In this document: piece after piece, positions 25,296 to 26,960 of the stretch | How the letters are laid out: each line of letters starts with the position of its first letter | Position numbering within the stretch: position 1 is the first letter of the stretch | Assembly (NCBI GenBank): GCA_009785345.1 | Contig: WQWL01000021.1 | Coordinates: 1 to 33,436 of the forward strand | DNA from: Oscillospiraceae bacterium | GTDB lineage: Bacteria; Bacillota; Clostridia; Oscillospirales; Oscillospiraceae | DNA length: 33,436 nucleotides | Direction: 5' to 3' | Translations under genes and position numbers: made by a program | Notes under the pieces: generated by a model | What the model was told of the DNA's origin: nothing | The model's database searches: none | The model's input: only the letters and a program-made list of their open reading frames with translations

Positions 25296-25405
25296 TGTAA
25301 ATGACCATTCCTTTCGTACTGCTCCAAACATGAATAAAGAATAGGCACTCTGCGCATTAATTTGCGGTTCCCCCCTGGGAGAACAAAGTGGCACATTCTC
25401 ACGCA

Positions 25406-25425
25406 AGTCTGAATTTATTCAAACT
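25406..25425. promoter_or_regulatory. 20-bp operator-like palindrome, copy 1
   Basis: AGTCTGAATTTATTCAAACT, an inverted repeat with one mismatch, in the leader of the minus-strand E2-like gene and close to its promoter. A second copy lies at 25889-25908. Confidence 0.5.
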
Positions 25426-25460: not shown

Positions 25461-25489
25461 ATTTTACATTATTGACATATACTTGTCAA
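25461..25489 (-). promoter_or_regulatory. Promoter of the E2-like gene
   Basis: On the minus strand TTGACA (25489-25484), a 17-bp spacer and TAAAAT (25466-25461). Its -35 box is one arm of the palindrome TTGACA-N6-TGTCAA (25472-25489). Confidence 0.75.
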
Positions 25490-25512
25490 ATTCACTATGT
25501 ATATGTTATCAT
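25483..25512 (+). promoter_or_regulatory. Promoter of the V-ATPase-like operon
   Basis: TTGTCA (25483-25488), an 18-bp spacer and TATCAT (25507-25512), each 5 of 6 to consensus. The -35 overlaps that of the divergent promoter, so a protein bound at the palindrome would affect both. ACATATAC / GTATATGT form a further inverted pair here. Confidence 0.55.
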
Positions 25513-25574: not shown

Positions 25575-25889
25575 ATGCTAGCTGACAACTTAAAAAAAAT
25601 ACTCGCTGCTGAAGATGAAGCAAATCAATTAAAGTATATCATTCTCAACAGGTCAAAGGAAACAATTGAGCAAACAAAAATCGATGGCGAAAAAGCACTA
25701 ACTGAAGCCCGTACTCGCGCCGAGCGCGAAATTGAACAGTTAAAAAAATCAGCTGATCAAAGAGCCATGGAAGCCGCATCAGAACTAGCTTCATCAACGG
25801 CAAATCGTCTTGCTACGATGCATGCACGGTCAGAAAAGCGTATGGAAATGGTTGCTGAACGAATCTTTGAAAGGATTAAAAGCGTATAA
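25575..25889 (+). CDS. V-type ATPase peripheral-stalk subunit G/H
   Basis: A 104-residue, almost entirely helical, charged protein resembling the V-type ATP synthase H (G) subunit, which pairs with subunit E to form the peripheral stalk. It has an initial short helix (LADNLKKILAAEDEANQ), then a long Glu/Lys/Arg/Ala coiled coil to the end; length fits the family. I chose ATG 25575, 12 nt after AAAGGA, as at other genes here; ATG 25563 abuts the ribosome-binding site. It is the first gene of a three-gene operon with shortened I and E homologues, and no rotor or catalytic subunits follow. A palindrome overlaps its stop codon. Confidence 0.75.
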   Translation: MLADNLKKILAAEDEANQLKYIILNRSKETIEQTKIDGEKALTEARTRAEREIEQLKKSADQRAMEAASELASSTANRLATMHARSEKRMEMVAERIFERIKSV

Positions 25890-25908
25890 GTTTGAATAAA
25901 TTCAAACT
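25889..25908. promoter_or_regulatory. 20-bp operator-like palindrome, copy 2
   Basis: AGTTTGAATAAATTCAAACT, perfect inverted arms of nine bases, starting at the last base of the subunit G/H stop codon. It matches copy 1 (25406-25425) at 17 of 20 positions. Confidence 0.5.
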
Positions 25909-25926
25909 ATACGAGAGAATTTGCCA

Positions 25927-25950
25927 ATTGCGCTCATGAGGAAGCGCAAT
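25927..25950 (+). promoter_or_regulatory. Hairpin between the G/H and I-like genes
   Basis: Perfect 8-bp stem ATTGCGCT / AGCGCAAT with an 8-nt loop, in the 134-bp spacer. No U-tract. Just downstream, AATGACCAT (25961-25969) could pair with ATGGTCATT (26012-26020), which lies immediately after the AAAGGA of the next gene. Confidence 0.4.
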
Positions 25951-26023
25951 AGATGCACGAAATGACCATCACTTCTCAAGGTCGCTTTGTGTCTAAAGAT
26001 TTTCGAAAGGAATGGTCATTATA

Positions 26024-26452
26024 ATGGCTGCAATCAAAAAAATCAGTATGATTATTTCGCATTCAGATGTCGTTAATTTAATAAGCGAGCTAATATATTT
26101 GGAATGTTTTGAGCCTATGGAACCTGAGATAGCATTTAATCTATCTGAACTTGATAATTACATTGAACGCGAGACTATGGATCTCGAACCCTATGAAGTT
26201 AATATTGAAAGCCTTACATTGTTAACAACAAAATATACATACACGCTTATAGGATGGATGCCTGCTGAGTTTGAGTCAGAGCTTACATCAGCACTTTCCG
26301 GTCTTACGTGTGCATGGGAGATTGAAGATCCGGAGCCTGATGAGGCTGAGTATGCTCCTGTATATATAAAGCATCCGCATTTGTTTGGAAAACTTCGCAG
26401 TGCCGGTCGTAGCGTTTTCGAACCACTTGCCAAAAAACAAATTGTTTTCTAA
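26024..26452 (+). CDS. Shortened V-type ATPase subunit I (soluble part only)
   Basis: A 142-residue protein that reads like two pieces of the soluble N-terminal domain of V-type ATPase subunit I (subunit a), normally about 650 residues. The start MAAIKKISMIISHSDVVNLI matches the usual first strand and helix. The later YTLIGWMPAEFESELTSAL matches the GW-P segment, and APVYIKHPHLFGKL resembles the P-LLKNP stretch just before the membrane domain. The long coiled coil and the whole membrane domain are absent, yet the frame is open. Start at 26024, 12 nt after AAAGGA. It lies between G/H and E homologues, the usual operon order, but subunit K is missing after it. Identity as a subunit I derivative is inferred from these segments. 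Confidence 0.65.
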   Translation: MAAIKKISMIISHSDVVNLISELIYLECFEPMEPEIAFNLSELDNYIERETMDLEPYEVNIESLTLLTTKYTYTLIGWMPAEFESELTSALSGLTCAWEIEDPEPDEAEYAPVYIKHPHLFGKLRSAGRSVFEPLAKKQIVF

Positions 26453-26483
26453 AATAAGCACATCGAAAGGAATTATAAAATCT

Positions 26484-26900
26484 ATGCAGGGCTTGGAAAA
26501 AATACTTGAACATATTAAAATTGAATCTGAAAGAGAATGTAAGGAAATAGCCATTAAAGCTAATAGCGAAAACAAAAAATATATTTCTCAATATTCTCAA
26601 AAAGAAAAAGCTACCTATTCATCTCATATGGAAAAAGGGAAAAAAGAAATTGAAAACAGAGTTGAGCAATTATCGAATCTGGCTGACGAGCAATCCAAAA
26701 AGTTGATATATTCAGCCGAACAAAGTGTTCTCGATGATGTGCTTGCGCTAACAGCAAAAAAACTTTCCGCACTTCCTGCAAATGAATATAGTAATTTGTT
26801 GAAAAGACTTGGTGTTGAAGAGGGATGCAAACCGGAATATCTCGTCGAACAGTATCGAGATGAACTTACACCATCTGTCATATCTGCCCTATTCGGTTAA
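26484..26900 (+). CDS. Shortened V-type ATPase subunit E
   Basis: A 138-residue homologue of V-type ATP synthase subunit E, the partner of G/H in the peripheral stalk. The N-terminus MQGLEKILEHIKIESEREC is typical, followed by a long charged helix and VLDDVLALTAKKLSALPANEY. The ending YLVEQYRDELTPSVISALFG also matches the family's C-terminus. About 60-70 residues of the usual globular head (normal length about 200) are missing in between, without a frameshift. AAAGGA lies 12 nt before the ATG. A terminator follows, so no catalytic A/B, C, D, F or K genes are in this operon. Confidence 0.7.
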   Translation: MQGLEKILEHIKIESERECKEIAIKANSENKKYISQYSQKEKATYSSHMEKGKKEIENRVEQLSNLADEQSKKLIYSAEQSVLDDVLALTAKKLSALPANEYSNLLKRLGVEEGCKPEYLVEQYRDELTPSVISALFG

Positions 26901-26929: not shown

Positions 26930-26960
26930 GGGGCTATTGCATCAATTTGCAATAGCCCCC
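26930..26960. terminator. Bidirectional terminator between convergent genes
   Basis: Eleven-bp perfect stem GGGGCTATTGC / GCAATAGCCCC with an 8-nt loop, between the stop of the subunit E homologue and the 3' end of the minus-strand foldase gene. U-tracts are weak on both sides (TATGTGCTTTT on plus). Confidence 0.75.

Follow-up and report, generated by a model that had tools for sequence, protein, structure and literature searches.

V-type ATPase stalk genes kept in trimmed form at the old pump locus in a genus of Oscillospiraceae

What can be left of a rotary ATPase when its motor is gone? The question is raised by three short genes, all read in one direction, that span positions 25575-26900 of the window, by which we mean the whole 33,436-nucleotide stretch of DNA analyzed here (Oscillospiraceae bacterium, GenBank assembly GCA_009785345.1, contig WQWL01000021.1, positions 1 to 33,436). 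A first-pass annotation made from the sequence read them as homologs of the V-type ATPase (V-ATPase) subunits G, I, and E, the last two shortened by in-frame deletions, and offered either a decayed operon or a repurposed stalk-like complex as the explanation. The three open reading frames of this triad are present as it described them:

25575..25889, + strand: subunit G homolog, 104 aa, full length (P0001)
26024..26452, + strand: mini-I, 142 aa, the proximal lobe of the subunit I cytosolic domain plus the C-terminal tail
26484..26900, + strand: head-less subunit E, 138 aa, with the long helix and the C-terminal helix retained

We conclude, with a probability of roughly 0.7, that the triad is the foot of a V/A-type ATPase peripheral stalk, kept as a soluble, non-rotary scaffold or adaptor complex; the complex and its role are what we infer. 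That the triad derives from a V-ATPase operon at the same locus, with in-frame excisions, is established, and all three genes are under strong purifying selection.

Identity and trimming of the three subunits

The homolog search covered 99 related genomes, 19 of them in the window's genus. A short protein like mini-I is encoded in 14 of these 19 (31-54% identity for the other 13), and these 14, the window's genome included, are called the stalk-only genomes below. The subunit assignments of the first-pass annotation were borne out. The window's E protein matches the Pfam family vATP-synt_E (PF01991) at 3.1e-9, above the cut-off, over profile positions 2-102 of 199. The match of G to V-ATPase_G (PF03179) is weak, with an E value of 0.0034 that falls below the cut-off; the same family matches G at 0.1 or better in seven of the 14 stalk-only genomes, the best value being 2.1e-5. 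By sequence and position, G of the triad is orthologous to G of the complete V-ATPase operon in genome G003 of the same genus. The ortholog is present in 18 of the 19 genus genomes, including all 10 of good quality; the miss is G012, which is 64% complete.

The first-pass annotation would have taken the lack of a profile match to subunit I as a refutation, and in the narrow sense of a Pfam match that lack is what was observed. No Pfam subunit I family matches mini-I in any of the 14 members, and the NCBIfam subunit I model scores the window's protein at 0.014, far below its cut-off. Full-length alignments and a 14-member profile do reveal the homology. The two halves of mini-I align to two separate parts of full-length subunit I from the same genus and family; in G003, the start of the protein aligns with the first half of mini-I and the end of the cytosolic domain with the second. 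A profile search in other genera returned the same two-part match. The 14-member mini-I profile matches subunit I 8wci_P at 3.5e-5 in three collinear stretches, the first of which is not significant alone. Because the halves align to separate parts of full-length I, both found in G003, we regard the homology of mini-I to subunit I as firm on sequence grounds. It extends to the proximal lobe, in agreement with the predicted fold of mini-I.

Compared with the G003 subunit, mini-I retains residues 1-68, 283-332, and 615-641. The coiled coil and membrane domain, whose absence had been noted at first reading, are indeed excised in frame; the distal lobe is lost as well, and the C-terminal tail is kept. 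Comparison with G003 also confirmed the reading of E as a protein with both ends kept and most of its globular head gone: the head is mostly excised in frame and the C-terminal helix retained in all 14 stalk-only genomes. The excision points are common to all 14, despite only 30-65% identity between their proteins and those of the window. The highest 19-residue hydropathy among the three triad proteins is 1.17, and none has a strongly hydrophobic stretch.

Origin, selection, and the missing motor

In G003, the same place in the genome holds a complete operon in the order G-I(641 aa)-K-E(199)-C-F-A(589)-B(460)-D(217). The shared neighbors on one side are NrdR, HolA, and ComEC, assigned by reading. 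On the other side are a shared PrsA-like foldase, also assigned by reading and without a Pfam match at 1e-4, and a DUF1292 gene, the only neighbor confirmed by family scan. An unrooted tree of the shared columns splits the 14 stalk-only genomes from four other triad-bearing genomes with support of 99.8/100. This split and the shared excision points, together with a single clade not being rejected in an RpoB tree, make one origin for the 14 likely from their sequences, although not proven.

All 42 triad genes in the 14 genomes are single uninterrupted frames. The ratio of nonsynonymous to synonymous substitution rates (dN/dS) in the closest pair, G007/G008, is 0.027 for G, 0.092 for I, and about 0.03 for E; in G005/G010 it is 0.096, 0.08, and 0.07, respectively. 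These values are rough because synonymous divergence is high. The synonymous excess is nevertheless clear, with Fisher p values of 6e-17 to 3e-34 computed on rounded counts. Over all 91 pairs, the mean ratio of the proportions of nonsynonymous and synonymous differences (pN/pS) is 0.43 for G, 0.51 for I, and 0.42 for E, with a highest value of 0.73, figures that are raised by synonymous saturation. The first-pass annotation had named frameshifts and a dN/dS near 1 as the marks of decay; with every frame open and closest-pair values of 0.03-0.09, the result speaks against it. A complete V-ATPase elsewhere in the window's genome was looked for and not found (the genome is 86% complete). Of the two explanations first offered, repurposing is therefore favored over decay: the frames are open, dN/dS is low, and no complete V-ATPase lies elsewhere in that genome.

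We then consider the motor and membrane parts. Among the 19 genus genomes, V-type A was found only in G001, G003, G011, G014, and G017. It was not found in 13 of the 14 stalk-only genomes, the window's included (B was searched separately in the window's genome alone). Subunit C (PF01992) occurs only in G001, G003, G014, and G017, and the rotor shaft subunit D (PF01813) in the same four, in G001 as an edge fragment; the window's genome has no match to PF01813 or to PF01992, the socket subunit. The membrane domain of I (PF01496) was matched, in a search of limited power, only in G003, G014, and contig C69 of G001. V-type A, D, C, and the I membrane domain all went undetected in 13 of the 14 stalk-only genomes. 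For subunit K, no gene lies between mini-I and E by reading; no genome-wide search was made, F-type c matching the same family. The window's genome carries FliI and two F-type ATPases, which account for its five strong PF00006 matches.

Two sister genomes (100/100 in the RpoB tree) hold intermediate sets. The G011 set (L053) consists of G, I (350 aa), E, A, and B; C, D, and the I membrane domain were searched for there and not found, apart from one PF01496 match taken up below. In G017 (L052/L071) the set is split between two contigs and comprises G, I (357 aa), K, E, C, A, B, and a truncated D. Both have lost the membrane domain of I in frame with the tail retained, and both have an A subunit with an intact P-loop. 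Between them, dN/dS is 0.12-0.24 for G, I, E, A, and B. Neither G011 (96% complete) nor G017 (85%) gave an F-type or FliI match in the ATPase search. Their I junction lies a few residues off that of the stalk-only group; given this and their sisterhood, their reduction may be a separate event, independent of the stalk-only group.

A further case comes from another genus. G027 (L116, contig C5, 7266-11205) encodes G, a 341-aa I that retains the tail, E (199), and truncated forms of A and B, in open frames. Its A is 375 aa long, with the GSGKT core intact and much other catalytic-domain sequence gone, and its B is 295 aa. Within the 18 kb inspected, K, C, F, and D were not recognized, and a genome-wide search gave no C. 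G166, of the same genus, has a full-length I frame of 655 aa. G027 thus shows a similar V-ATPase reduction, a second case that consists of one genome and could be decay.

Several points weigh against our reading of the triad. The RpoB tree does not resolve the base of the genus and neither shows nor rejects a single clade for the 14 (p-AU 0.366), and synonymous sites are near saturation except in the closest pairs. PF01496 found no membrane half of I in the window's genome, in a search of limited power, since the full-length I proteins of G003 and G014 themselves score below the cut-off. G011 contig C15 has an N-terminal PF01496 match below the cut-off. Contig C7 of the window's genome has a further, weak PF00006 match (20.7 bits, below the cut-off). 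All the genomes are drafts, two of the 14 less than 75% complete, so single absences could be gaps. Finally, G001 has the triad and also pieces of V-type A, C, and D on other contigs. The G and I of this second V-ATPase look unlike those of the genus, and G001 has 7% contamination, so it is possibly foreign, either a xenolog or a contaminant. On contig C69 (L069, 1-6457), the divergent V-ATPase operon stands beside genes read as ruvABC.

What the triad may do

The proposed history runs as follows. In an ancestor of most of the genus, the V-ATPase operon would have shrunk in place. The K, C, F, A, B, and D genes would have been lost and subunit I cut in frame to its proximal lobe and C-terminal tail. 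E would have given up most of the head by which it grips the catalytic ring, and only G would have kept its full length. As they do in the parent enzyme, G and E would pair as a coiled-coil rod capped by the proximal lobe of I, and the resulting small soluble complex would neither rotate nor pump. That a soluble complex of E, G, and the I proximal lobe forms is probable. Selection would retain it for a partner that the parent enzyme's stalk foot already bound, and a scaffold or adaptor role is the most likely one.

Rotary ATPases are usually viewed as all-or-nothing machines; in this genus, parts of the stator have persisted after loss of the motor. That three shortened proteins remain under selection where the pump operon once stood implies some benefit of the stalk foot that needs no rotation driven by ATP. 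Genomes of the genus range from a complete pump, through one that lacks the membrane half of I, to the stalk foot alone, so that the minimal E-G-I set can be expressed and tested directly and a second job of the stator becomes an answerable question. Whether a pump was pared stepwise and in frame to a selected stalk complex with no motor, with intermediates surviving and another genus doing similarly on its own, we hold to be evenly balanced. If true, these bacteria would make general use of the V-ATPase stalk foot in a second role, one hidden wherever the whole pump is present.

Could the triad instead be an accessory of another rotary ATPase, such as a tether or regulator of an F-type enzyme? 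Of the two F-type ATPases in the window's genome, one has a delta (OSCP) domain fused to the N-terminus of alpha (L073, G000 contig C114, 3271-5043), and F-type-length matches occur in each of the 14 stalk-only genomes, with a family scan made in the window's. We consider this unlikely: b and delta subunits are already encoded in the classical F-type operon, the E head that would grip a catalytic ring is mostly gone, and G and E are also retained in G011 and G017, where no F-type match was found.

It is improbable that the triad is a membrane-surface factor with a lipid-binding I lobe and an EG rod that recruits some other component. The I lobe sits near the membrane in the parent enzyme. Mini-I does retain the lobe that corresponds to the proximal end of the a-subunit N-terminal domain (aNT) of yeast Stv1, an end reported to bind phosphatidylinositol 4-phosphate (PI4P) (PMC10313074). 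The lack of any strongly hydrophobic stretch in the triad proteins argues against this role, as does the fact that bacteria are not known to contain lipids of this type.

A decaying operon whose frames are open by chance is very unlikely and already contradicted by the data. Stepwise subunit loss is visible across the genus, and mini-I evolves faster than G and E in the closest pair (dN 0.108 versus 0.020 and 0.046). Such decay would nonetheless have to leave three frames open in 14 of 14 genomes, hold each gene's dN/dS well below 1, keep common excision points through large later divergence, and preserve the overlap of the G and I genes in 16 of 18 loci.

Least credible is service to the flagellar export ATPase, replacing or beside FliH, itself a distant relative of rotary stalks: FliI, FliJ, and a FliF-FliG fusion (one 761-aa frame; L072, G000 contig C17, 9636-11921) are present in the window's genome, but a 289-aa putative FliH frame, identified by reading, overlaps the FliI start, and G004 (98% complete) has the triad with no FliI-like match.

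Local features and known systems

The stalk foot reading leaves the local features of the window to be described:

25483..25512, + strand: sigma-70-like promoter candidate upstream of the triad, 10/12 consensus match, TG before the second hexamer
25890..26023, + strand: spacer between G and mini-I, 134 bp
26930..26959, + strand: possible terminator hairpin after the triad, 12-bp stem, by reading the sequence
25300-25316 / 26004-26020: inverted-repeat arms, 100%
25406-25425 / 25889-25908: inverted-repeat arms, 95%

The promoter and terminator had been called intact. A promoter-like site does exist, in a scan with no clear excess of such sites (11 versus 6.7 +/- 2.7 in shuffles); the terminator scan scored no terminator, and the 12-bp stem was seen by reading only. 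The exceptions to the overlap of G and I genes within the genus are the window (134 bp) and G002 (58 bp). The inverted repeats are nested and flank the G gene, and the spacer may have arisen as a copy, inverted and since diverged, of the upstream stretch.

In G007 and G008 (L039 and L040, 1-1480), the G gene overlaps the end of an NrdR-like frame, and downstream of the triad lie genes that cluster with the tRNA synthetase and P-type ATPase of the window, so the locus was rearranged there. Seven of the short-E loci are recorded as "Oscillospiraceae bacterium" metagenome-assembled genomes with bin names such as Emb289P3bin50 and Lab288P3bin200, which presumably come from termite-gut studies.

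No V-ATPase derivative reduced to stator parts was reported in the literature records listed by our searches. The triad shares with the peripheral stalk of V/A-type ATPases (E, G, and the cytosolic domain of I/a) homologous genes, locus, and gene order, as well as the predicted fold of the I proximal lobe and the E helix. It differs in that neither a catalytic ring nor a rotor nor the membrane part of I was detected, and in having lost by excision the distal lobe of I and the greater part of the E head. Reuse of rotary-ATPase genes is described for the Mycoplasma F1-like ATPases of Types 2 and 3, in the gliding machinery and MIB-MIP (PMC3369863, PMC11864180, PMC12994834). Those F-type systems are reported to keep the motor and to have no homologs of the ordinary stalk, whereas the V-type triad retains the stalk foot and lacks the motor. 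GliD of Mycoplasma mobile, suggested by its authors to derive from peripheral-stalk b and delta (PMC11864180), resembles the triad as a soluble scaffold of putative stalk origin; however, it is described there as acting with a retained F1-like motor and consists of different subunits. The mycoplasma F1-like ATPases are the nearest precedents, and the triad is the reverse case.
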